Shown piece by piece: positions 26,667-59,680 of a stretch of 59,680 nucleotides of DNA. The notes under the pieces are model-generated. The model ran no database searches. It was not told the origin of the DNA and saw only the letters and a list, made by a program, of their open reading frames with translations. The stretch comes from a virus. The translations under genes were made by a program, and so were the position numbers. Position 1 is the first letter of the stretch. Every line of letters starts with the position of its first letter. Location of the stretch: positions 1 through 59,680 of the IMG/VR virus record IMGVR_UViG_3300044673_000126; one strand, 5' to 3'.

Positions 26667-27341
26667 TCAGGGTGGGGGTGGTTCCTCCTTGGGCTCTGGG
26701 GTTATATCTATGACCTTAGGTGATTCGATCTTGGATCCAAGGGCTTCCTTGGCGATTCCGAGCAGGTGTGGGAAGGCGCTTACCATAGCGGCGACGCGTC
26801 CCTTGAGCTCCTCGGTTGCGGTATCAGAGAAGTCGTGGCGGTGTTCCTCGATCCTCTTGTCCGCGAAGGCGGATGGGTCCAACTTGGCCGCACGCCAGGT
26901 GAGCGCCTGGAAGGCAACCTTGGCTGCCTGGGCAGTCTCGGGAGTGGCACCGCGGCCGGCATCAGTCGCTTCCTCGGCGATCAGGTAGGCCCTGATTTGT
27001 TCTGCCTCACGGAGCCGCTGATCAAAGGTGGGATACTTGCGGCGCCAATGAAACAGTGTCCGGATGGACGGGGCCCCGGGGACATCACAGATCTCCTTGA
27101 GGTTGTGCTTCTCTGCCGTCATGATACAGACCCACTCCCAGACCTGGTTCATGGAGACTTCACCGAGGCCACTAATGTTCCATGCCGTAGCAGTCACATC
27201 CTTGGTCGCAAACTCCAGCTTCCGCCTGAAGCGGAGGTCATGGTCCCCCCGGGAGGGGGAGGCCGTTTCGAGTTTGTCGGTGATGTTCTCCATGAACTCG
27301 TCCAGGTGGACAGACTTCCTAGGCTTCGGGATTCGCGGCAT
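26667..27341 (-). CDS. terS: Terminase small subunit, 224 aa
   Basis: The product contains LKEICDVPGAPSIRTLFHW, a helix-turn-helix typical of Sf6-like small terminases, then a long helical oligomerisation region (LREAEQIRAYLIAEEATD) and WRAAKLDPSAFADK, the usual end of this family. It binds the packaging start site and stimulates the large subunit. ATG at 27341 is chosen because the longer in-frame extension reads Pro/Arg-rich and runs inside the upstream gene. It overlaps that gene by 23 nt. Confidence 0.8.
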   Translation of the reverse strand: MPRIPKPRKSVHLDEFMENITDKLETASPSRGDHDLRFRRKLEFATKDVTATAWNISGLGEVSMNQVWEWVCIMTAEKHNLKEICDVPGAPSIRTLFHWRRKYPTFDQRLREAEQIRAYLIAEEATDAGRGATPETAQAAKVAFQALTWRAAKLDPSAFADKRIEEHRHDFSDTATEELKGRVAAMVSAFPHLLGIAKEALGSKIESPKVIDITPEPKEEPPPP

Positions 27342-27759
27342 CCGGCTCTTCGCCGGTAATGAAGGAGGCGATGGCTTCCTCGACATCCTTGTTCTCCTCC
27401 TGTTCAACCTCGATCTGGTCGGCCTGTGCCTTGCTGAAGGCCTCCATGATGGTCTCGTAGTCCACACCATCATCATGGACGGCCAGGGCGGGGTTGACAA
27501 TGAAGGTCTTGGACCGCTCCCGGTTCATCTCCTTAGCGATGAAGCCGTAGCTACACAGGGCGCGGGTTGCCATGTAGAGGGTCTGGCCGGAAACCCCAAG
27601 GCGCTCGGCCAGCTTCTGCTGGTCCACCTTCGCCTTGTTGTCCGGGCCCATGACCGAACAGATATAGAAGAGCGCGCGGAAGGCGTGCTTGCCCACCACA
27701 CCAGACTCGGTGCTCACCGCCAGATGGCGCATGACGTCAGACTGGAAGACTACGTTCAT
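27319..27759 (-). CDS. RepL-like winged-helix DNA-binding protein, 146 aa
   Basis: First gene of the left arm, with a strong GGAGGT site. Residues 50-95 form a winged helix (KLAERLGVSGQTLYMATRAL, then FIVNPALA) with the pattern of plasmid RepL replication proteins and related regulators. The C-terminal 40 residues are acidic. It could start replication (no DNA polymerase or helicase is seen in the genome), control the two divergent promoters beside it, or both. These roles are inferred; the winged-helix fold is well supported. Confidence 0.65.
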   Translation of the reverse strand: MNVVFQSDVMRHLAVSTESGVVGKHAFRALFYICSVMGPDNKAKVDQQKLAERLGVSGQTLYMATRALCSYGFIAKEMNRERSKTFIVNPALAVHDDGVDYETIMEAFSKAQADQIEVEQEENKDVEEAIASFITGEEPDAANPEA

Positions 27760-27793: not shown

Positions 27794-27821
27794 AGGATAA
27801 CCCCGAAGAGGTGCCTGTCAA
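27794..27821 (-). promoter_or_regulatory. Sigma-70-like promoter for left arm
   Basis: On the minus strand TTGACA (27821-27816) is followed after 16 nt by TATCCT (27799-27794), giving a start about 30 nt before the RepL-like gene. The -35 is perfect and the -10 keeps the key first two bases. On the plus strand a second TTGACA at 27863-27868 lacks a convincing -10, so the right-arm promoter was not located. Confidence 0.55.
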
Positions 27822-27969
27822 CAGGAAACTTGCAAGAAAATCCTTCTCTACCGATCTTGGGGTTGACAGGGGTGGGGCCATGGCGCAGACTCTGGGTGTC
27901 GGTGTTGAGGGCGGGGCCGATCCCCAGAATCCACCGGTCAAGCCCGGAAGCCCCCGAGAAGGCTGGTGA

Positions 27970-28290
27970 AGAGACGGGATATCAAGGTGGCCAGCGGTGC
28001 CTAAAGCCTAAGCAGCCAAGGCGTTGAAACCGGCCAGACCTTGATACGCTACTCGAAGAAAGCGTGTGGGCAGAGCCCCATACAACCCCTGAGGCAACAA
28101 GCACTGTCTCAGGGGCCACCGTCAGGAGGAAACTCGGGAAGCATCACTAGCACCTACCGCTGACCGAGGGTGCGCTGAGGGCCGTCAAACCCCCTCTGAA
28201 GTGATGGTGCTTGATGCCTTGGGGCTCCGAAAGGACTCAGGGAATCACCTTCATCCCCGCAAGGGGATACTATGCCCCGAGGTCCGTGGA
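27970..28290 (+). ncRNA. Candidate structured RNA at head of right arm
   Basis: Several exact pairings occur in order. TATCAAGGT (27980-27988) pairs with ACCTTGATA (28038-28046), enclosing GGCC/GGCC. CCCCTGAG (28086-28093) pairs with CTCAGGGG (28108-28115). GCATCA+AGCACC (28141-28154) pairs with GGTGCTTGATGC (28206-28217), 12 bp around a 2-nt bulge. CCTTGGGGC (28217-28225) pairs with GCCCCGAGG (28274-28282), enclosing TCC-GAAA-GGA and ATCCCC-GCAA-GGGGAT, both with GNRA tetraloops. No credible protein gene fits. Large ornate phage RNAs such as GOLLD or ROOL are a possible analogue, but I cannot assign a class. Confidence 0.65.
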
Positions 28291-28321
28291 TCTAGGGAAT
28301 TACACCTTCGGAGGTCAACCG

Positions 28322-28429
28322 ATGTCCGCTCCCGTCACACCCTCTGAACTCGCTCGCTTCCTCTCTCTCTTCTACCAACCAGACCCAAATGGATGGCTCG
28401 ACCCTGTTGAGCTTGTCAAGTCCAATTGA
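28322..28429 (+). CDS. Micro-protein, 35 aa
   Basis: A 35-codon frame starts at an ATG with GGAGG 7 nt upstream. The product is MSAPVTPSELARFLSLFYQ followed by an acidic tail ending VELVKSN. Codon use looks coding (many third-position C and G). It is flanked on both sides by structured non-coding sequence, so it may be a leader peptide or a small regulator. Unrecognised. Confidence 0.5.
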   Translation: MSAPVTPSELARFLSLFYQPDPNGWLDPVELVKSN

Positions 28430-28790
28430 AAACCCCTGAAAAATATAAGGTTGAGACGAAACACACACGCGGGCTTCGTCGTATGAAAACCCCCCAATAC
28501 CCCCCCCCGGCAGTTCCGGAGCCCGGATGAATGAGAACGGCGGGATAGGGCCGCTCCGTATATGAGGGGAACGCCTAGCATGGGCTGGGTTGGAAGCTCT
28601 CTCCAGAGACTGAAGGCAGGATAAGCCAAGGTCAACGGAGTCTCTCCGCCTTCCGCTGCTGGCCTTGAGCAAGGTTCAGCAGGCACAACCTCACCCAACG
28701 CCGCAAGAGGCAAGGGGGCTTGATAACGTCGGTGCAGGATGGAGATTCACTGCACGACCAACGCGGCTAAGTGCCGCAAGAGGAGATCCC
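28430..28790 (+). other. Non-coding region with many hairpins
   Basis: No convincing gene lies in these 360 nt. AGAGACT near 28600 is complementary to AGTCTCT near 28640 (7 bp). GCGGC...GCCGC at about 28762-28777 sits just before the next gene's ribosome site. The stretch also holds two C-runs (C6 and C9) near 28485-28505 and an imperfect copy of the TTCCGGAG palindrome. It may extend the structured RNA upstream or form a separate 5' leader. Confidence 0.45.
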
Positions 28791-29315
28791 ATGCGGATCA
28801 ACATGACGAACATCCTGAAGGCCGGTGAGAAGAGCATCGCGGCCGTGAACAAGGGCCTGGAGTTCATCGAGGACAGCGCCAACGATCTCGTGAGCAAGAT
28901 CGTGGCCTGGGACCAGGTGGCGAAGGCTGGCCGGGAGCATCTGCTGTGGGCGCTGGCGGCGAAGGTGGAGGCCACGCTCGACGTCACGGATTGGGCCTTC
29001 CGCAACAGCCTCAAGGTCTACTTCGACGACTTCCAGAGCCCCGAGGGGAAGGCGTTCGCCAAGCTGGACAAGGGCCAGCAGCTCAAGATCGCGAAGGCGT
29101 GGTCCGAGGTCGTGGCGGGTGTGAAGGCTGGGAAGGGCACCGCGTCCCAGCAGCGGAACAAGCGCAAGCAGGCCAAGGCTGGGGTGGAAGCGCCCAAGAC
29201 CTACCGCCAAGTGCTGAACGAGGCCAAGGCTCTGACCCACGACGAGCAGGAGAGCCTGTTCATGGCCCTGGCGAAGAACCTGGGCATCAGCACCCGGAAC
29301 CTCAAGAGCGCCTAG
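28791..29315 (+). CDS. Hypothetical protein, 174 aa
   Basis: I choose the ATG at 28791 (AGGAG 5 nt upstream) over a TTG 126 nt earlier, which would read through the leader hairpins. The protein is helical with a basic, Gln/Lys-rich middle (SQQRNKRKQAKAG) and a charged C-terminus ending STRNLKSA. Highly expressed-looking codon choice. Unrecognised; a palindromic site follows 4 nt after the stop. Confidence 0.7.
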   Translation: MRINMTNILKAGEKSIAAVNKGLEFIEDSANDLVSKIVAWDQVAKAGREHLLWALAAKVEATLDVTDWAFRNSLKVYFDDFQSPEGKAFAKLDKGQQLKIAKAWSEVVAGVKAGKGTASQQRNKRKQAKAGVEAPKTYRQVLNEAKALTHDEQESLFMALAKNLGISTRNLKSA

Positions 29316-29319
29316 CAAG

Positions 29320-29334
29320 TTCCGGAGTCCGGAA
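29320..29334. repeat. TTCCGGAGTCCGGAA palindrome, copy 1
   Basis: A 15-nt perfect palindrome (one central base) 4 nt after a stop codon. As RNA it forms a 6-bp stem with a 3-nt loop; as DNA it looks like a dimer-binding operator. Further copies: 29680-29698, 31325-31341, 32727-32743, 38429-38443. Confidence 0.85.
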
Positions 29335-33918: not shown

Positions 33919-36900
33919 ATGTCTGAACTCTATGAGATCGCAGGCAGGGGCGCGATTGTTGTCCTTGGCTCCGGCCAACAGTGCGACCGGGACATCAGAA
34001 CCATCATGGATCATTGCCGCCGGTTCAACTCACTGCGGGTGGACAACTTGGCGTGCACATTCCCAGGCATGAACTGGGAAGTGTCGGGGCCCGTAGTAGG
34101 GGCGGCGAGCCCGAACACCATCTTCATCAGCACACTCAGTGCATCGCAGCCGGAAGACAAGGGGAGGACCTTGCGGTTGGAACGCATTGCGAGATCACTG
34201 GAAAACAACACCAACACGGGGGCGCACGAGGCCGCACTTGTCGCGCTCGCCGATGAGGGTGACCCGACGGCCACCTTCGCTCTGGCCGCAACCCGTGCCG
34301 CACTCGACTCGATGCGAGACTGCCCCCCGAGTGACCAGAACAACCTCTTTGTCTATACTCTCGGTGGAATCCGCTGTGCCCTGTCATCGACCCGTTACAG
34401 CACCTTCGCAACTCGAAGGATTCTCCGGAACCAGGACAAGGTCATCGACGCATGGCGGTGTGAACTCTCAATGCGGCTCATGACTGCCACCTGTTACAAC
34501 ACGGGGGTCTACTCGGATCCAAGGATCGCGTTTGCCGCTGGCGATCTGGTCAAGGAATACTACGACCTTCGGCGCGACAACCTCGTTGATCCGTATCGTG
34601 ACGAGATCTGCTTATCTCGCTCCGCATCCATCCAAGACGCCTACAACAATGTCTATCGCCGGGTCTCTGGTGTGGCAGCGGCACTCGACCCCACCAGTGA
34701 GCGGGGCGGCCCCGCGCTCTCCTATGGGGACTTCCAGATCAACGTCCACCTGGCGTATGGGATCCTCCGGTTCATGGGGCGAGCCCTTAACTCAGTGACT
34801 TCAGAGTCTGGGGCCAACGCTCTCAACCTCTCTGGGGCAGACACCTTCCCTGTCATCATTGGGCAGGGCCACATCGAGCGCGTCATGGCAGGCCTCGAAC
34901 TCATCAAGACCTGCTGCAACCTGATCAAGCTGGCACCACCGTGCCTCAAACCGAACATGGAGGGCGCCTTGCCCGCAAATCAATGGACGGCCAATATCCC
35001 CGAGCCGCACGTGGATATCTCTGAGAACGCCCGCGTTCGTGCGGCCATCCCCACGTGCACCAGGTGCGGTTGTGTTGCGCCCAACCCCGTCGTTCAGGGT
35101 GGCACCTTCCGTGGGCGTCCCGTCGAACTGGACGGGATACAGACTGATGCACGCTATTGCGCCTCGTGTGCCGAATCCATGCTCACACTGGCCTACGACA
35201 CGGCATCCTACCATCGGAGCAATAAAGTCATGTCCATCAGCGCCATGCGGGAAGCGCGCAGCACAGGGCATCGGAACGGTGTCAACATTCCCATCACTGC
35301 CGGGACGGTGTCGCAGTTCAATCGCACAGTGCTCTCCGCGTGTGGAGGGTGTGGCAACCCCACCTTCAACCGGGAGAAGGTGCTGGCCTTCACGGACCCC
35401 AACCCTGGAGTCCAGAGGCGCATCCGTCTCCTCGGAGATGGGGTCTCGATGACGGCCAACCAGGAAGAGTTCGATATGATCCCACAAGGACTCAACGACT
35501 GCTCCCGTCAGGGTCTGCCGTCAGATACCGTCATCATCCTCTCGACATCAGTGCTCGTCCACGACATGGAGAGCGACCCCTCCATGCGGTGCCGTAGATG
35601 CGCCAACCCGGCGCGGCTCTACCAGGATCCAGCGACGGGGAAGTATTACACCTCAATCGACGCCTCACCATCCGCCCCGGAGTATGGCTACAAGGTCCCC
35701 GACCCAAGCGGTAGGTTCCTTGACCGTGTCATCGGCATAGAGTTCGAGACCGGCCCGGGGTCGGCGCAGGTCGGTGTCGAGAGGATGGACGCCTTCCTCA
35801 ACGAGGCGTGTTCGGACGGCACGCACATCTGGCACATCCACGGGGACGGCTCCCTCATGGGTGGTGCCTGCGAGATCACGACGCCTCCCATCGGCGGCCT
35901 CGCCATCCCGATGGGCGTGGATGCGATGTTCAACCTCGCCAAGAAGTATGGGTTCAACATTGAGAACCGCTCGGCCGGGATGCACATCCACACAAACATC
36001 ACCGATCTGTTTGAAGTGATGATGCCGATCCGAACCAGGCATCGGGCGGGTGAGACTGCCGCTACCAACTCCTACCGAGAGTTCTGCAATCTGCTCGGTC
36101 GGTTCGGGGATGCCATGTCCCAGTTGAGCCGCCAGTTCGTGAGCAAGGCGCGGCGGAGCAACACCTACTGCCAGGGTGGATTCGGTGTCAGGTCCTGGAA
36201 CTGCGGGGACCAGGACCCGATGATGCGATACCAGAGCTCGTCCCTGTCTGGCAGATCCGCCGTGTGCATCCATCGGCATGATGGCTACGCCCGACGGACC
36301 AAGGTGACCTACACCCTGGAGAACCGCATCTGGCCCAGCAGCAACAGCAAGACCTATACCCTGGCTCGCGCAGAGTTGACGCAGAAGGCCATCGACAAGT
36401 TCGTCGGACTGAGTATCGAGTTCCTCAGTAATCCGGACGCCGCCCATCGTGCAGTGTTGGACCAGTTCGTCACGTTGGTCGAAACAACCCCAAGGCTCCG
36501 TATCGACAGGCGGGTCCAGGCAACAGTGGATCTGTTCGGGCTGTCGGACGAGACGAAGGCGGCGCTCGATGCCATTCATCGGCGTTACTTCTACATCTCC
36601 TACTATGCACATGAACACAATCTCTCTATGGGCTCGCCGGAAATTACCAATCTGGTCAAGGAGAGCCTGCGCAGTGTGGGTATCAACGATAGGACTGTGG
36701 ATGATCCCATGGCCTACACCGAACTAGCCGGAATCCTGGCGGCGAAGGGACTATCCTCACCGACTGTCCCCGATACCCTGCGCGTGCTGCACCACACGAT
36801 GAATATGGACACGACCATCGCATCGCTGGCGTGCGACCCTATGGCCACCGATGCCTCGGACCTTTCCTCCGCGGCCCCTCTCTCCATCGTCAACAACTAG
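33919..36900 (+). CDS. Amidoligase-like protein with Cys clusters, 993 aa
   Basis: The C-terminal half carries the signature order of COOH-NH2 amidoligases of the glutamine-synthetase-like type: GIEFE at about residue 607, GDGSL at about 643, EITTPP at about 652 and GMHIHT at about 687. That family joins a carboxylate to an amine using ATP. Four Cys pairs (near 380, 415, 475 and 558: CTRC, CASC, CGGC, CRRC) suggest zinc ribbons before the enzyme domain. The N-terminal ~370 residues are unrecognised. The next gene is a class II glutamine amidotransferase, the partner expected to supply ammonia. Substrate is unknown. Confidence 0.7.
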   Translation: MSELYEIAGRGAIVVLGSGQQCDRDIRTIMDHCRRFNSLRVDNLACTFPGMNWEVSGPVVGAASPNTIFISTLSASQPEDKGRTLRLERIARSLENNTNTGAHEAALVALADEGDPTATFALAATRAALDSMRDCPPSDQNNLFVYTLGGIRCALSSTRYSTFATRRILRNQDKVIDAWRCELSMRLMTATCYNTGVYSDPRIAFAAGDLVKEYYDLRRDNLVDPYRDEICLSRSASIQDAYNNVYRRVSGVAAALDPTSERGGPALSYGDFQINVHLAYGILRFMGRALNSVTSESGANALNLSGADTFPVIIGQGHIERVMAGLELIKTCCNLIKLAPPCLKPNMEGALPANQWTANIPEPHVDISENARVRAAIPTCTRCGCVAPNPVVQGGTFRGRPVELDGIQTDARYCASCAESMLTLAYDTASYHRSNKVMSISAMREARSTGHRNGVNIPITAGTVSQFNRTVLSACGGCGNPTFNREKVLAFTDPNPGVQRRIRLLGDGVSMTANQEEFDMIPQGLNDCSRQGLPSDTVIILSTSVLVHDMESDPSMRCRRCANPARLYQDPATGKYYTSIDASPSAPEYGYKVPDPSGRFLDRVIGIEFETGPGSAQVGVERMDAFLNEACSDGTHIWHIHGDGSLMGGACEITTPPIGGLAIPMGVDAMFNLAKKYGFNIENRSAGMHIHTNITDLFEVMMPIRTRHRAGETAATNSYREFCNLLGRFGDAMSQLSRQFVSKARRSNTYCQGGFGVRSWNCGDQDPMMRYQSSSLSGRSAVCIHRHDGYARRTKVTYTLENRIWPSSNSKTYTLARAELTQKAIDKFVGLSIEFLSNPDAAHRAVLDQFVTLVETTPRLRIDRRVQATVDLFGLSDETKAALDAIHRRYFYISYYAHEHNLSMGSPEITNLVKESLRSVGINDRTVDDPMAYTELAGILAAKGLSSPTVPDTLRVLHHTMNMDTTIASLACDPMATDASDLSSAAPLSIVNN

Positions 36901-36929
36901 CCCAGACGGGCATCCTAAGGAGCCACTAC

Positions 36930-38387
36930 ATGTGTGGTTTGTTTTCAATCTTCCCCAAGGAGGGCGCCGATGCCCTCTCCCTTCGTGTCCTCGCCCTGTT
37001 CCTCGGCGTCGGCAACGTGCCGAGAGGGCGTCACAGCTTCGGCATGTGGGGCAAGGGGATCCCTCCGTTCCGTTCCCTGGGGGCGATCACCGACGATGAC
37101 AACATCGCCAACTTCCGGTCGTTCATCTTCAACACCTGGCAACCGGAGGCCGGGGCGTGGATGGCTGGCCATACCAGGCAGGCAACACACGGTGCGAGAA
37201 CCATCGAGAACACGCATCCATTCGAGCTTGGGACACTGACCCTTGCTCACAACGGGGTCGTCAAGGTCGATGGCCTGACCGAGAAGGATCACCCCGTTGA
37301 CTCAGGGCAGATCGCCATCTCTGTGGTGACACACGGATGGGCGGGTGGCCTCGCCAAGGTGTCTGGGTCCTGCGGCCTTGTTGCCAGTGTGGGTGACAAG
37401 CTCTACCTCTACCGGCACTCCCAGGTCCTCCATGTCGCGGAGGGGCCATGGGGATGGGCCGTCTCGTCAGAGAAGTCTACCCTCAAAGAAGCGCTTGTGC
37501 TGGCTGGGCTCGAAGTCACATCCCTCGAACCCGTGGTGGAAGAGTATGTCACAGCTCCATGGGATGGCACCCACGAGAACTGCCCGGCCGCTGTCTACAA
37601 GGCGCCAGCCACCGAAGCCAAGTATGGCGGCTACGTCTGGGACTCGGATCGCTACGGCTACGAGGGTGGCTACGAGGGTGGCTATGACTACAGCCAGCAG
37701 CGAAGGGGCAAGGTTATCCCGTTCTCCCAGCCGCCCCTCACGAATGTCACCAAGTCCGAAGCATCTCGCGTCTCTGACGAGGAAGCCAAGAAGAAGTTTC
37801 TCACCCGCAGCGAGTCCGTCCTGATGGACAAGGATCGGGCTCACGAGAAGGCAGCCACCATGCTGCTGGCCCTCCGAGGAAAGAACACCAAGGGCGCCAT
37901 CGTCCTAAGCGCACAGAGTGCAACCCGCGCAGCACTCATCAAGAGGGCTGTCCTAGTGGAACGGTTCGAGCGTGAGATCATCCACGTCTACGACCCCAAC
38001 ACCAAGCAGACCACCCAGTGTCTCTCCTGCCTGAACGTCCCCCTCACGCAATACGAGAAGATGACGGACGAAGAGCGAGAAGTCCTGTGGGTGAAGGCCT
38101 ATGCCGAGACGCTGAACAACATTGGCGTCACGACAGAGGAGTTCATGGCGGCCCAGGAGGAATACGCAGAGGATGAGAGCTGCATCATCCTCAACGAGTC
38201 TGGTGTGTGCGACTGGTGTGGGACGGTTCGTGATGTGGACGATCTCACTGACCGGATCTTCGGGTCCGAGACCGTCAAGGTGTGCAAGTATTGTGACAGC
38301 GAGTTCAAGGCTGCACGAAGAGGCATGGACTACCGCTCCGTCAAGGGTGGCCGCCGCGATCAGCGGAGGGTCCGAGGCAACGCATGA
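36930..38387 (+). CDS. Class II glutamine amidotransferase with C-terminal zinc ribbons, 485 aa
   Basis: The ATG at 36930 (AGGAG upstream) gives MCGLFSI, placing the catalytic Cys at position 2 as this Ntn-hydrolase class requires; longer readings lose it. Other class motifs are present: HTRQATHG at 81-88, NTHPF at 94-98 and HNG at 107-109. The amidotransferase fold spans about residues 1-230. A Tyr/Gly-rich linker (near 245-255) and a Lys/Glu-rich part follow. CLSC and the CDWC...CKYC pair form C-terminal zinc sites. The domain would release ammonia from glutamine for the amidoligase encoded 29 nt upstream. Confidence 0.85.
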   Translation: MCGLFSIFPKEGADALSLRVLALFLGVGNVPRGRHSFGMWGKGIPPFRSLGAITDDDNIANFRSFIFNTWQPEAGAWMAGHTRQATHGARTIENTHPFELGTLTLAHNGVVKVDGLTEKDHPVDSGQIAISVVTHGWAGGLAKVSGSCGLVASVGDKLYLYRHSQVLHVAEGPWGWAVSSEKSTLKEALVLAGLEVTSLEPVVEEYVTAPWDGTHENCPAAVYKAPATEAKYGGYVWDSDRYGYEGGYEGGYDYSQQRRGKVIPFSQPPLTNVTKSEASRVSDEEAKKKFLTRSESVLMDKDRAHEKAATMLLALRGKNTKGAIVLSAQSATRAALIKRAVLVERFEREIIHVYDPNTKQTTQCLSCLNVPLTQYEKMTDEEREVLWVKAYAETLNNIGVTTEEFMAAQEEYAEDESCIILNESGVCDWCGTVRDVDDLTDRIFGSETVKVCKYCDSEFKAARRGMDYRSVKGGRRDQRRVRGNA

Positions 38388-39755: not shown

Positions 39756-39787
39756 GGCCCCCGGTGCTTCGGCGCTGGGGGCCTTTT
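39756..39787 (+). terminator. Intrinsic terminator with UUCG loop
   Basis: A 12-bp GC-rich stem (GGCCCCCGGTGC with GCGCTGGGGGCC) closed by a C(TTCG)G tetraloop is followed by TTTT. It ends the first right-arm transcript block after the amidotransferase operon. Confidence 0.85.
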
Positions 39788-39820
39788 GTCGTTCACGCAT
39801 ATCAACCAGCAGGAGGTAAC

Positions 39821-53613: not shown

Positions 53614-54111
53614 TCAGGACTCCTGCCAGACTTTGATCAATGGGTATGTCCTGACCTTCCGTCCATTCACATTAACATAGACCTCGCCGCGGATCTGCCG
53701 GCGCGGCTGGCTAGCACTCATCCCAACATGAACGCACCCACGTTCAAGGATGAGCTGGTCGATGAGTCGCATGATGCTCGGTGTTGCTTGTATGGCGGCG
53801 AACAGCGCTTCTACCTTCCCATTCATGGGGTAGATGTCGGCAGCCAGCCCATCACAGTGGGCACTCGTGGAGCTTGCACCAGGAATGGCCGCGTTAAGTG
53901 TGACCCCGCGGAACCCAGAGTGCAGCGACCCACCCTTAACCTTCTCGCTCATGCTCCCAGGCCATAGCTTCTCCGCCAATTCAAACACCATGTCGGCGAC
54001 GGGCATCAGGATGTTGCGGATGTTGGCTTCCTGCTGTGCGCTGGGACGGTTCTGGATCCCCATACGCGCAGCGGTCTCAGAGTATAGGTAGTCTTCGTAG
54101 CTGAACCCCAT
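53614..54111 (-). CDS. M15-type peptidase endolysin, 165 aa
   Basis: ATG at 54111 overlaps the giant gene's stop; a GTG at 54114 is also possible. SGFR at about 67-70, then SAHCDGLAADI at about 85-95 (His and Asp zinc ligands) and ERGCVHVGM near 130 (His ligand) are the signature of M15 D-Ala-D-Ala carboxypeptidase-like endolysins, which cut peptidoglycan cross-links. No signal peptide is visible, so export depends on the holin. Confidence 0.85.
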   Translation of the reverse strand: MGFSYEDYLYSETAARMGIQNRPSAQQEANIRNILMPVADMVFELAEKLWPGSMSEKVKGGSLHSGFRGVTLNAAIPGASSTSAHCDGLAADIYPMNGKVEALFAAIQATPSIMRLIDQLILERGCVHVGMSASQPRRQIRGEVYVNVNGRKVRTYPLIKVWQES

Positions 54112-57100
54112 CACTCACCCCCGCCCATACGCTCCTCGACCAGCGACTCGTTGCGGAGCTCCTCCTCCATGCGCCTCGAACCACTGCCCACGTTCGGGAC
54201 AATGATCATGTCTGGGCGCTTGATGTTGCTCATTGCATCGTTCCATGCCCGGATCTCATTCCAGTTCTTCTCTGTAAGATTCCCGTTTTCAAACGCCTGC
54301 TTGAGCCGCTTGATAGCACTGGAGCGCTCGTCCTTAAGCTGACGGTTCGCGGCGTCCTGCTCATAGATCATGGCAGTCTTCTGTGGCGTCACTCCAATGG
54401 CCTTCGCGGCGCGCTCGGCGGGGGTCATCTGGTAGAACTCCTCTGTCCCGCGCATAGGCTTTCTGCCAGGGGCATGCCGCCCGATCCAGAAGGCATCAAC
54501 CAGGTTGGCTGCTCCGGATGGTGCCGCGATCTGGGCCACACCACCGACATAGTCCCCCTGCTCGATCCTTCTGGACCCACGGCGGAGGCTCTCGACAGCA
54601 CCAGTGTTGGCGCCAAGCGACAGGTTGGCGAGGTTCTCCTGCCAACTCTTGTGCGTGTCCACAGAGACTGGGCCCTCACCCATGCTCAACTGAGCGCCGA
54701 AACCATAGAGCGGCGGGATCAACCCGAAGATGCCGGCCGCGGCGAAGCTGGCTGTGCGTGGGCCAAACTTCTCGCGGACCCACTCAATGTAGTCGCGCTT
54801 GACGTCATGGATCGGGGGCTTCCCGCTGATCCTGGAGAGAAGGTTCCAGATGTATGACATCAGGTCCGCCAGCAAGCCGGCAAGTGGGGGGCCGAAGCTG
54901 CCGCCAAGGAGCATCGCGGCGAGCGCACCGTAGGCAGTGCTCTTCATGGAGGCCACCGTGGCAACGGACGCGTGTCGTCCCTCGGCTTCGAGCCGACGAG
55001 CAGTGATGCCCATGTCAGAGATCCACCCACGCAGCACGTTGATGGGGTAGAGCCGGAACAGGACCACCGTCTTCATGAACGCAGCAGACCGGCCGTTCCC
55101 CTCTGGGTTCCAGATCTTCTCATTGCCGAACCCACGCCCCGTATTGAAGTTGGCGTGCGCCGACTGACGCTGGGCGAACGTCATGATCCGGTTGTAGGCC
55201 TCGTCCTTGGTCATCGCTTCGAGCTGGGCCTTGGTGACATCGCTGTTCCGATACCGCTGGGCGAGCTCCTGGCGGACTTGGGCCTCCAGGTCGCCATAGG
55301 TCAGGCGGGAGTAACCCTCGTCCGAGATGGAGACGTAGCCATACTGCGCCCAGATGCCAGTTTTCTTCCCGGCGCTCTTGGCCCTGGACTCAGTAGCTGC
55401 ACCGACAACGTAGGACACGATGTCTCGGATGCGGTTGAGGTTCTCCCCCTTGTTGGCAACGTAGGTGAGGATATCCTTGGTTCCTTCCTTCGCCTGAGAG
55501 AGCTTAGTGGTGTGCGTCGCTCGGCTGATGTCATTGGCCGCAACATCCTCCACGCCAATCTGCATACCGACGTTCACATCTTTGAAGCTAGAGCCCTGGA
55601 TGACTCGGTGCATGACCTCCTTCACGATGGGCCGCATGCGGTCAGCCTCTTCCTGGGTTGCCCAGATCTTGGAGAAATTCTGGAAAGAGAAGATCTCATC
55701 CATGCGCGCATCAAGCACGGCCCTGTCGATCATAGACAGATCCGCGCCAGGCTTGGCCATCAGCGCCAGTAGCTTCACGGCTGCATTCTCAGAGGCCCTG
55801 ATGAGCGGCTCAGTGTAGCCAGTGTCATACATGGCCATCATGTGGGGGCGGCTGGTTGTGAACTGCTGGAAATACTGCGCGGCGCCAAAGGAGATCTTCG
55901 CCATCAGCGCCTTGTAGGCTGTGAACGTGCGGAGCGCGTTGAATGCACCGACAACGCCATCCGCACTGCGCTGCGGAGCGAATGTCGCAAGTGTGTAGTT
56001 CAGGAGCTGGTCGTAGTCCTTCTGGGAGAGCCCATCGGACACTTCAACATGGCGACGGTAGGCGTTGAGCTCCTCGCGGAGGTCGCCTGCGTAGAGGAGG
56101 GACCCTGCCATGTAGCCGGCGGCCCGGCCGTGCATAGAGAGCGCACCGATGATGTCCTCGGAGTAGCCAGCGGTGTTGTTGCGCGCATACTTCAGGCGCC
56201 CCTTGATGTCGGAGGCGCCGGCCATGTAGCGCAAGTCACGGAGCATCGCGCTACGGGCATCCCCAGAGACGCCACCGGCACGATTGTCGATGATCTCCTG
56301 TAGAACTTCGGTGGTGAGCATGCCACCAGCCATCTTGACGAACTTCAGATGGTCATTGTCGCGGAGCTCGCCGCTGTTGGACTCAACGAATCGCCCCTCG
56401 AAGTGATGCCCGAACTTGATTCGGCCAGCCTCGATGTCCTTGCGGAGCTGTGCCTCGATACGATCCGGACTTCCAACGCGGTCAGCCTCTGCCCACAGCT
56501 TGTTCGCGTGCTGCCGAACCATCTGGTCAATAGCAAGCCCCCGGACATCATCCGGGATCTTTGTCTCGCTGTGGCCGGTATCGACCATGATCATACCGAT
56601 GCGATTGCCGTCGGCATCTACCATGTCGAGCTGGCGCGTGGCCTTCTCGTTGCGGAGCAGGGAGATGAAGACGGGGTTCTTCTGGATGATGGAGCGCAAA
56701 GTGTCTGTCTCATCCTCAAACTCGGATACCTTCTTCTCCAGGGCCATGAACTGCTCGTCAAACTTCTCATCTGCTGGGTCCAGCGCGTTCTGCTCGTCGC
56801 GCAACTGGGCCACCTTCGACATGGCCTCTCGGTCGAGGGCTGCCAGGGTCACCTTCTGGATGCCGCGGATGACGTCAACCACCTTGCGGTAGAGCTTCGA
56901 GCCCTCCTCGTCAAGGCCGTATCGGTTGGCAAGCTCCGCCCCATTGATGACCCGTTCCTGGACGCTGCTGTCCATCAGGGCACGTCCGAGCATGGTATAG
57001 GACTGCCCGTCTGTGTCGCGCAGGGAGGCCAGGGCCTTGAGTGTTGGCTGGAGCCCACCCACGATGGAGTCAGCGGCGTGCCGATACATCAGTGCCAGGT

Positions 57101-59680
57101 GCATGATGCGCGTCTGGTGGTCGGTCTTGAACTGGTGGACAAACTGGAGGAACTTGCGGCCCTCGGCCAGGATGGGGGATCGCCGCGCGCGCGTGGACAG
57201 CCGGTCCTTGGCCCAAGCCATTGTCTTCCCGAGCACATCGTCGATGAGACCGTCCATCTCGCGGAGGTCGATGCCGCTGTTCACATACAGGAGACCGCCA
57301 TCCGCCCCCTTGCCGGCCTTGACGAGCTCACCCTCAAGGCCGTCCTCGAAGTTGATGATGTCCTCGTTGCTAACAGACTCACCACTGACGAAGGCAATCG
57401 GGCCGTCCTCTAATACCTCGGGGTTGCTGGCGTGGAGAACCAGCTCTCCCCCGGCTGTGGCCTGAAGCCTTTGGCTCCGCTCTTCCGGAGTGATATACCC
57501 CGCCTGAGTGACGCCAGAAAGCCACTGTGAGATGTTGCCGTTGATGTCGGACTGGATCCATCCTCGGACTGCGTCCTTGAGGCTTCCGGCATTCCATCCT
57601 TCGCCATCATAGTTCCCCTCCAGCATGTCACTCGCGATGTTGCGGTATCGTTCGGCAATAACCTTCTTGTCCAGGGTGGCGGCCAACCCTTCCAGGCGCT
57701 TGAGCGCAGCATCTCCGGCATACTCATTCCCGGTGGAGTCGTCGATCACAACAAGATCTCCAGACAGCCCACCACGCTTGACCTCTGCGATGACATTCTT
57801 CATGCCGTTCACCAACGCCGTGGCAAAGCCGTCAGAGTAGGTGAGTCTCTCTTCCTGTGCACCACGGACAATGGCACCAGTGATCATGTCGTTAAGGTTC
57901 CGCAGGACATAGACGATGTCAGTTCGTGCACCGGCCTTCTGCGCCTGGGAGACAGCGCTTGCGAGGGTATTGGCCGCGAACGCAGAGGTCTCGTGCATGA
58001 CTGCATAGGTCTCAAGGGCAGCAGAGGACCCCATGAAGGTCGTCTTGCCGGCGCCGTTACCGCCCACCACGATAGCTACGTTCTGCCCGTTACGCGCAGC
58101 CTGACGGAACTGGTGCTCCATCACCCGGTTGAACGCGGCGCCAACACCATGGGGCAGGTTCTCTACCCATGCCAGCGCGCCACCACCCGGATGGATCAGC
58201 TTGTCACGGACAATGTCGAACGAGAAGACGCGCCCACCATGCGTGGCCGGGGTGTTCTTATAGATGCCCCAGAACACGGACGGACGAGACAGCTTCTGGG
58301 CGGCGGCCATGAGCCTGGCCTTACCCTCTGGGGTGAAGTAGCCGGCCCTGTCAGACGCTGGGCTCTGGAGCTCCTGCTGCGTCAAGCTGCGGTTCTCCTC
58401 TGTGCGGCTACCACCATCGGGGTGGCCACCGTCCTTGAACATGGCGGCCATCAACCGGGACGTATAGACGCCGATGCCCTTGGCAAAACCACGGATCTTG
58501 GCAGAGAGCTGGGACACAGTGTTGGATGTATTAGCCTTGATGCGCTCCATCACGGATCTGAATGTTGGGTTCTGCATCCCCAGCTTGTAGCCGAGGTAAG
58601 CGATGCCCGCACCCAGGAGGATGGCTGCACCCTCAGGGCTGGACTGAGACAGGCCCATCACACCAACCAGGTCGACCCCAAGCGCCACGCCAGCGGATGC
58701 GTGCGCACCCTCCCTGGACCCACCAGTGAGAAGGCGCTGTGCTTCCTCCCGGATGCTTGGGTCAGCGTTGCCGGGGCCAACTTCCCGGAGATACATCTGG
58801 ACCTGGTTGTAGATGCGGAGACGATCAGCCTGCCCAAGGTTCTGGGCCTGCGCCTGTCGGATGGCGTCGAGCACTCGGCGACCAGATGCCGCCCGGTCGG
58901 GCTGACCTTCAAGCGTTTCCTCCTGGATGACCGTAGGCTCTTCCTTCGCGCTCTGCTCTTGGAGCACGGCGGCGACAGAGCTTTCACGCTGACTGGCGAG
59001 AGTCTCGATGGCGGCGGCGTCCACCTCGACAGTGTTGATCCTCTTGCCTGTCAATGCCTCGACGGCATGGGTCGCCATCATGTAGTTAAGGCTGGCGTCG
59101 CGCCCAGGGGTAACCGCATCTAGAGCCGCCGAGATGTCAGTGATAGTCGCATCAATGTCGGTGATGTCGCCCTGCAAGAGCCTGGCGTGCTTCGCACTAC
59201 CTGCCAGCTCGGCAAGCGCGGCGATACCAAACTGCATCTTGGTTGTGTCCTCGATGGAGATGCCAGCCGCTTCGGACTCATTGATGAGGGTCTCGATGGC
59301 CTCGTTGGCTGCACGGACGTTCGCACCGGCCGCACCTGGGACGGTGCCCTTGAGTAGGCGCGTGGCGATAGCAGTAAGGGTGCTGGCCGGCAGCCGGATA
59401 CCGCTGGCCTTGATCTCCCTCGCGAGGATGCGGGAGGACCGGCTCTTGTCATTGACATCTGCCTCTACGACACCCGGGTCAACCTCGGTCAGGTCGGCGA
59501 TATCATCGGGACCGTAGATCGCATCCTCAACGACAGACTCGGCCTCAGCCTCAGCCCCGAAGGCGCGACGGAGCTCCTCCTCTGAGGCGGGGAGCCATGC
59601 GAGGGCAGAGCGATTGACTCGCGCAATGATCTCATCGAACCGGAACTCAGCATTTCGGACAGCAGTGTTGCTCTGATTCA
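54111..59680 (-). CDS. Giant polyvalent virion protein, C-terminal 1,857 residues, zeta-toxin-like domain
   Basis: Continuation of the gene that starts at 5857 across the circular joint. Counted on the whole protein, a P-loop GGNGAGKTT lies at about residues 2410-2418, YVLRNLNDMITGAIVRGAQE at about 2460-2480 and VVIDDSTGN at about 2516-2524, the order seen in zeta-toxin-type kinases. A hydrophobic stretch lies near 2200-2240. The C-terminal 500 residues include AKAIGVTPQKTAMIYEQDAA and a membrane-like segment (LLGGSFGPPLAGLLADLMSY), features of large polyvalent proteins. The zeta domain may act in the host cell after injection; this is inference. The window-end cut is artificial. Confidence 0.85.
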   Translation of the reverse strand, partial: NQSNTAVRNAEFRFDEIIARVNRSALAWLPASEEELRRAFGAEAEAESVVEDAIYGPDDIADLTEVDPGVVEADVNDKSRSSRILAREIKASGIRLPASTLTAIATRLLKGTVPGAAGANVRAANEAIETLINESEAAGISIEDTTKMQFGIAALAELAGSAKHARLLQGDITDIDATITDISAALDAVTPGRDASLNYMMATHAVEALTGKRINTVEVDAAAIETLASQRESSVAAVLQEQSAKEEPTVIQEETLEGQPDRAASGRRVLDAIRQAQAQNLGQADRLRIYNQVQMYLREVGPGNADPSIREEAQRLLTGGSREGAHASAGVALGVDLVGVMGLSQSSPEGAAILLGAGIAYLGYKLGMQNPTFRSVMERIKANTSNTVSQLSAKIRGFAKGIGVYTSRLMAAMFKDGGHPDGGSRTEENRSLTQQELQSPASDRAGYFTPEGKARLMAAAQKLSRPSVFWGIYKNTPATHGGRVFSFDIVRDKLIHPGGGALAWVENLPHGVGAAFNRVMEHQFRQAARNGQNVAIVVGGNGAGKTTFMGSSAALETYAVMHETSAFAANTLASAVSQAQKAGARTDIVYVLRNLNDMITGAIVRGAQEERLTYSDGFATALVNGMKNVIAEVKRGGLSGDLVVIDDSTGNEYAGDAALKRLEGLAATLDKKVIAERYRNIASDMLEGNYDGEGWNAGSLKDAVRGWIQSDINGNISQWLSGVTQAGYITPEERSQRLQATAGGELVLHASNPEVLEDGPIAFVSGESVSNEDIINFEDGLEGELVKAGKGADGGLLYVNSGIDLREMDGLIDDVLGKTMAWAKDRLSTRARRSPILAEGRKFLQFVHQFKTDHQTRIMHLALMYRHAADSIVGGLQPTLKALASLRDTDGQSYTMLGRALMDSSVQERVINGAELANRYGLDEEGSKLYRKVVDVIRGIQKVTLAALDREAMSKVAQLRDEQNALDPADEKFDEQFMALEKKVSEFEDETDTLRSIIQKNPVFISLLRNEKATRQLDMVDADGNRIGMIMVDTGHSETKIPDDVRGLAIDQMVRQHANKLWAEADRVGSPDRIEAQLRKDIEAGRIKFGHHFEGRFVESNSGELRDNDHLKFVKMAGGMLTTEVLQEIIDNRAGGVSGDARSAMLRDLRYMAGASDIKGRLKYARNNTAGYSEDIIGALSMHGRAAGYMAGSLLYAGDLREELNAYRRHVEVSDGLSQKDYDQLLNYTLATFAPQRSADGVVGAFNALRTFTAYKALMAKISFGAAQYFQQFTTSRPHMMAMYDTGYTEPLIRASENAAVKLLALMAKPGADLSMIDRAVLDARMDEIFSFQNFSKIWATQEEADRMRPIVKEVMHRVIQGSSFKDVNVGMQIGVEDVAANDISRATHTTKLSQAKEGTKDILTYVANKGENLNRIRDIVSYVVGAATESRAKSAGKKTGIWAQYGYVSISDEGYSRLTYGDLEAQVRQELAQRYRNSDVTKAQLEAMTKDEAYNRIMTFAQRQSAHANFNTGRGFGNEKIWNPEGNGRSAAFMKTVVLFRLYPINVLRGWISDMGITARRLEAEGRHASVATVASMKSTAYGALAAMLLGGSFGPPLAGLLADLMSYIWNLLSRISGKPPIHDVKRDYIEWVREKFGPRTASFAAAGIFGLIPPLYGFGAQLSMGEGPVSVDTHKSWQENLANLSLGANTGAVESLRRGSRRIEQGDYVGGVAQIAAPSGAANLVDAFWIGRHAPGRKPMRGTEEFYQMTPAERAAKAIGVTPQKTAMIYEQDAANRQLKDERSSAIKRLKQAFENGNLTEKNWNEIRAWNDAMSNIKRPDMIIVPNVGSGSRRMEEELRNESLVEERMGGGE
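59438..59680. repeat. Right copy of terminal overlap
   Basis: Same sequence as 1-243 apart from one base (A at 59553, G at 116; silent). It closes the genome at about 59,437 unique bases. Confidence 0.95.

Follow-up and report, generated by a model that had tools for sequence, protein, structure and literature searches.

A conserved, folded RNA of about 400 nucleotides at the predicted start of the rightward transcript of a phage genome

The window, that is, the whole stretch of DNA analysed here, corresponds to a complete IMG/VR record of 59,680 bases. The record carries a 243 bp terminal repeat (positions 1-243 and 59438-59680; 99.6% identity), and a second contig of the same phage (IMGVR_UViG_3300045051_000289; 99.99% identical) spans the end-to-end join of the window. 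The genome thus looks to be complete, with a length of about 59.4 kb. Its genes lie in two divergent arms. The leftward arm contains packaging genes, namely those encoding the small terminase, the large terminase and the portal protein, and is headed by a gene encoding a RepL-like protein, which is not where a replication initiator is usually found. The rightward arm, along which plus-strand genes run for about 24 kb, encodes exonucleases, a RecE-like recombination protein and three scattered tRNAs, a gene content that suggests this to be the early arm. The same arm encodes a glutamine-fructose-6-phosphate aminotransferase-like protein (36831-38387, plus strand; phrog_4736). Two very large proteins of 993 and 1708 aa, encoded at 33919-36900 (plus strand) and 54111-59237 (minus strand), respectively, gave no PHROG or Pfam match. 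Between the arms lies the non-coding stretch with a 35-codon frame to which a preliminary description of this DNA had drawn attention. The features of this region are collected in Table 1.

Table 1. Positions of the features at and around the RNA, in window coordinates.
Feature	Position	Strand	Details
RepL-like winged-helix protein, divergent neighbour of the RNA	27319-27759	-	PF05732, 34.9 bits (cut-off 20.3)
Predicted leftward sigma70-like promoter	27794-27821	-	TTGACA, 16 nt, TATCCT; 10/12 in the window, 11/12 in L003
Predicted rightward sigma70-like promoter	27863-27891	+	TTGACA (27863-27868), 17 nt, CAGACT; L003: TTGACA, 17 nt, AATACT
Conserved structured RNA	27897-28300	+	Helices P1-P9 and a pseudoknot
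P1 hairpin	27898-27938 (27898-27904/27932-27938)	+	Inner GGG CCGAT CCC; 2 double changes and 1 single
P2	27943-27978 (27943-27946/27975-27978)	+	2 double changes in 4 bp
P3 arm	27980-28046 (27980-27987/28039-28046)	+	5 double changes
P3a, inner hairpin of P3	28006-28009/28019-28022	+	1 double change
P4 hairpin	28066-28081	+	3 double changes in 5 bp
P5 hairpin	28086-28115 (28086-28096/28105-28115)	+	11 bp, loop ACNAGCAC; 6 double changes
Pseudoknot	28098-28213 (P5 loop 28098-28104 with 28207-28213)	+	7 bp in both phages; 1 double change
P8, enclosing P7	28142-28206 (28142-28147/28201-28206)	+	P8 invariant
P7	28177-28181/28192-28196	+	3 double changes
P9 three-way junction	28222-28277	+	GAAA hairpin 28226-28235, GCAA hairpin 28253-28268; helices invariant
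Probable small gene	28322-28429	+	35 aa (L003: 52 aa); ribosome-binding site at about 28309-28314
Conserved, not unusually stable stretch	28437-28610	+	CCTGAAAAATA, C-rich run, palindrome 28514-28528, hairpin CCTAGC-ATGG-GCTGGG
First larger gene of the rightward arm	28791-29315	+	No function assigned; L003 homologue 32% identical
Strong intrinsic terminator in the rightward operon	39756-39793	+	12-bp stem with 10 G-C pairs, TTTT

Comparison was made with a 15 kb phage contig syntenic with the window (IMGVR_UViG_3300045960_000029; L003, also L007). The TerL proteins of the two are 73% identical, and the DNA at 26.1-28.6 kb of the window is 65% identical, with identity in the region of the RNA being about 65-68%. 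In searches of IMG/VR, of phage and plasmid collections and of 84,980 GTDB genomes, the only carriers of the RNA found were the second contig of the same phage and L003. These searches involved protein queries with the two flanking genes and TerL (for one such scan, no further carrier was seen among the matches listed), DNA patterns for the RNA or TerL (four in IMG/VR and two in the GTDB genomes, several of these being exact patterns), and blastn against phages and plasmids. A covariance model was also run on 86 sources (the window, L004 and 84 TerL-relative loci), 12 whole records and eight pattern hits. In tblastn searches of phages with TerL, the best match was 35%. With L003 being the only independent homologue found, all of the covariation considered below rests on two sequences.

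A conserved, folded RNA of about 400 nt is found at approximately positions 27,897-28,300 on the plus strand. The preliminary description had placed a structured region at 27970-28790; the RNA itself runs from some 70 nt upstream of that start to near 28,300, such that about 400 nt of structure stand, and what follows is a small conserved gene and then a stretch (28430-28790) that folds as a single sequence no better than do its shuffled versions (z +0.28). In a hand-corrected alignment of window positions 27913-28306 with L003 positions 4500-4111 (68% identical), RNAalifold gave a z-score of -8.9 for the two sequences on the plus strand, with none of 200 column shuffles scoring as low, and of -7.2 on the minus strand. 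As this alignment was corrected by eye, sliding 150-nt windows of an uncorrected MAFFT alignment provide the less biased test. Now, the plus strand peaked at 28003-28199, with z-scores of -5.9 and -6.9, most flanking coding windows gave values of about 0, and elsewhere on the plus strand -4 was never reached. When folded alone, 27897-28300 gave a minimum free energy z-score of -3.38 (none of 100 dinucleotide shuffles was as stable), and the L003 RNA one of -2.8. Since G-U pairs are present in P1, P3a, P4 and P5 and the plus strand scores more strongly, the element is better read as a plus-strand RNA than as a DNA palindrome.

The model comprises 13 helices and 73 base pairs. Between the window and L003, no pair is broken; 48 are the same in both, 23 are doubly changed and two differ on one side only. 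Because the helices were picked for being able to form in both sequences, unbroken pairs are in part to be expected, and it is the count of double changes that matters. In 100 shuffled alignments, the best helix of each contained a mean of two double changes and at most four. Sequence identity is 67% at paired and at unpaired positions alike, so coupled change rather than slow evolution appears to have preserved the pairs. As far as can be judged from the two-sided pair changes in these two related phages, such changes show that the fold matters. Strong structure, above chance, is thus borne out by folding energy, by the alignment scores and by the doubly changed pairs. Could a G+C-rich intergenic region nonetheless fold in this manner by chance, with no RNA function being served? 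The opposite strand also scores, as near-symmetric pairing predicts, and two sequences only are compared; against this stand the double changes in the absence of any broken pair and one helix, P5, exceeding the maximum reached by any shuffled alignment. For P3, P4, P5 and P7, chance folding is refuted, and for the element as a whole it is extremely improbable.

The strands of the pseudoknot read CAAGCAC and GTGCTTG in the window and CTAGCAC and GTGCTAG in L003, and seven-pair helices as good as this one occurred at a mean of 0.005 per column-shuffled alignment. As P8 abuts the pseudoknot, the two could stack. A 12-bp stem previously proposed at 28141-28217 can be formed in the window, but L003 breaks pairs 28146-28212 and 28152-28208, and none of its pairs is compensated; the stem was accordingly rejected, with its 3' strand instead being used by P8 and the pseudoknot. 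The two hairpins with GNRA loops already recognised in the preliminary description proved to be real and are kept in L003, where one extra U-A pair lies under the GCAA loop, itself retained. Of the 9-bp stem said to surround both, the inner 4 bp (28222-28225/28274-28277) are conserved and the remainder is not. For P8, P9 and both GNRA hairpins, invariant between the phages, the support consists solely of this conservation. Conserved loops in the RNA read AAGCARCSA, ACNAGCAC and ACTCGAAGAAAG.

Upstream of the RNA, two divergent sigma70-like promoters are predicted back to back in both phages. In the case of the rightward promoter, the -35 element and the spacing are identical in the two, with the L003 copy scoring 10/12; the -10 element of the window is weak, fell under the threshold of the scan and was not called by it. 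The predicted rightward start lies at about 27,897, and P1 opens one position further on, some 7 nt past the -10 element. The leftward promoter is predicted to serve the gene encoding the RepL-like protein and the packaging genes beyond, with a leader of about 28 nt and no comparable structured leader. No intrinsic terminator was found on either strand between positions 27,650 and 28,900 of the window, so that one transcript probably carries the RNA, the small gene and the operon. The assignment of the RNA as the predicted 5' end of the rightward transcript, produced by host RNA polymerase from the conserved promoter, is well supported. Its position at the predicted first base of that transcript is unusual.

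The 35-codon frame probably represents a true gene, since L003 encodes a 52-aa homologue at the matching place; the two products are 60% identical over 20 aa (SPVSPSELTRFHSLF in L003 and APVTPSELARFLSLF in the window), and a ribosome-binding site precedes the frame in both phages. Positions 28,300-28,510 are C-rich and G-poor, with GC skew falling to -0.43, and in both phages a C-rich run (AAACCCCCCAA..CCCCCCC; window 28484-28510, L003 3857-3885) directly precedes a palindrome. A boxB-like string past the small gene, CCTGAAAAATA, is without a stem in L003 and was rejected as a candidate. The palindrome is a degenerate copy, at 28514, of a palindrome, TTCCGGAGTCCGGAA, that is repeated in the window at 29320, 29682, 31326, 32728 and 38429, and L003 carries a repeated palindrome of its own, GTCGGGAYRYCCCGAC, at L007 positions 633, 1965, 3088 and 3842. 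At least two palindromes occupy matching places in the two phages and differ in sequence, one following the C-run past the RNA and the other following the first larger rightward gene. They look like the site of a regulator of diverged specificity or else an RNA hairpin.

Of the readings offered in the preliminary description, that of a novel large non-coding RNA or a leader with a regulatory role is supported by the compensatory changes sought and found in the homologue, albeit in a comparison of two sequences, and by the lack of any Rfam match. A leader governing how the small gene and the operon are translated or attenuated, whether in the manner of a riboswitch or via Rho, would fit with the placement of that gene directly 3' of the RNA and of its homologue in L003, as well as with the resemblance of the C-rich stretch to a Rho-loading region. 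The small protein is, however, weakly conserved, and neither conserved sequestering of the ribosome-binding site nor a terminator/antiterminator alternative was found, leaving such control an unlikely role for the RNA.

The presence of the RepL-like protein raises the prospect that the locus is part of a replication origin, at which the RNA would prime or control DNA replication beside a RepL-like initiator. Origins based on non-coding RNA are known in extrachromosomal mycobacteriophage prophages (PMC7157519). As here, the non-coding RNA in those phages adjoins a divergently oriented gene, but there the origins lie beside parABS in temperate phages lacking a rep gene (PMC7157519), whereas here the neighbour is RepL-like and no parABS was recognised among the window genes scanned. 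Also in favour, the origin of P1 RepL is postulated to be inside the repL gene (PMC9948254). Against such a role, the regional G+C minimum is only 46%, RepL-like winged helices may be plain regulators, and the element is a single plus-strand RNA rather than a set of DNA iterons, its G-U pairs also disfavouring an iteron- or cruciform-based DNA origin. A role in replication is, as such, more doubtful still than one as a leader of the kind just described.

Attention is drawn instead to the length of the rightward operon and to the terminator that it contains, lying just past a stop codon and ahead of the next gene, with genes continuing beyond. No sigma70-like promoter was found near or just after this terminator. 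Because an operon of about 24 kb thus holds a strong terminator without a nearby promoter, antitermination in cis represents the simplest role for the RNA. Host RNA polymerase would start at the conserved sigma70-like promoter, such that the RNA would form the 5' end of the transcript, would fold on leaving the polymerase and would determine the extension or use of the transcript. The likeliest effect would be read-through of terminators, such as that at 39,756, by the polymerase, as brought about by HK022 put, though here by a different and much larger RNA. That the RNA is a cis-acting nascent element of this antitermination-like type is, by analogy, our tentative first choice, with a probability of less than even. 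Counted against it are the availability of only two independent sequences, a length more than five times that of put and the lack of a comparable leader in the leftward arm; no boxA- or boxB-like signal was recognised by eye. Alternatively, a middle promoter that escaped recognition could serve the terminator at 39,756.

The RNA might also act in trans, being processed near 28,300, accumulating and binding a partner of host or phage origin, the mode of action supposed for GOLLD and ROOL. Its size, pseudoknot, GNRA hairpins and conserved loops would suit a compact tertiary fold with a partner, and stability is restricted to 27.9-28.3 kb. Arguing the other way, there is no terminator at the 3' end of the RNA, the ribosome-binding site of the next gene begins about 10 nt or less from that end, and no Rfam family of large RNAs was matched. 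Action in trans can thus be considered possible, if doubtful. On balance, we lean towards a cis-acting RNA; action in trans, which suits the intricate fold nearly as well, ranks just after it, and a part in replication ranks lower.

To our knowledge, a role has been established for few large phage RNAs. For this one, there are a 73-pair model, a predicted start and a conserved promoter, and the downstream terminator renders the antitermination hypothesis testable in a reporter. Should the RNA act in trans, it would represent a new class of large phage RNA. It is conceivable, although the odds are against it, that one is dealing with a large, pseudoknotted phage RNA of a new class that, placed at the first base of the rightward transcript, would reprogram host RNA polymerase, or another host machine, as infection begins and without a phage protein.

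Among known large phage RNAs, GOLLD and ROOL form RNA-only multimeric cages. GOLLD members are often more than 800 nt long, and both GOLLD and ROOL are often found near tRNA islands (PMC12286853). The RNA described here resembles them in being a large structured phage RNA with extensive pairing and no function assigned, but is about 400 nt long, serves as the predicted 5' leader of the rightward transcript and is not near tRNAs, those of the window (45326, 48387 and 51841) being 17-24 kb away. No Rfam match was obtained at the gathering threshold across the whole window, nor for the region and L003 at permissive E-values of up to 5-10, GOLLD and ROOL included; group I and II introns, RNase P, tmRNA (also sought with ARAGORN) and known riboswitches and ribozymes were likewise unmatched. 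The likeness to GOLLD and ROOL noted in the preliminary description hence does not extend to membership, given the smaller size, the lack of a match at permissive thresholds and the 17 kb to the nearest tRNA. With no Rfam match, the GOLLD and ROOL models unmatched and no tRNA close by, we regard the RNA as a new family among large structured phage RNAs.

In HK022, putL is located immediately past its early promoter and requires no protein factors for its activity (PMC9378689). The put RNAs, of about 70 nt and two stem-loops, are found in both arms and, unaided by proteins, suppress both pausing and termination of host polymerase (PMC9378689). Here too, a structured RNA is predicted to start a phage transcript made by host RNA polymerase, immediately downstream of a promoter considered early from the gene content of the arm, and a long operon with a terminator follows. 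By contrast, the present RNA is pseudoknotted, more than five times longer, with at least nine helices in addition to the pseudoknot, and is found in one arm only, and its antitermination activity is putative, being proposed by analogy. Were it to control host polymerase, the problem that HK022 put solves would have a second solution, in the form of a much larger RNA.
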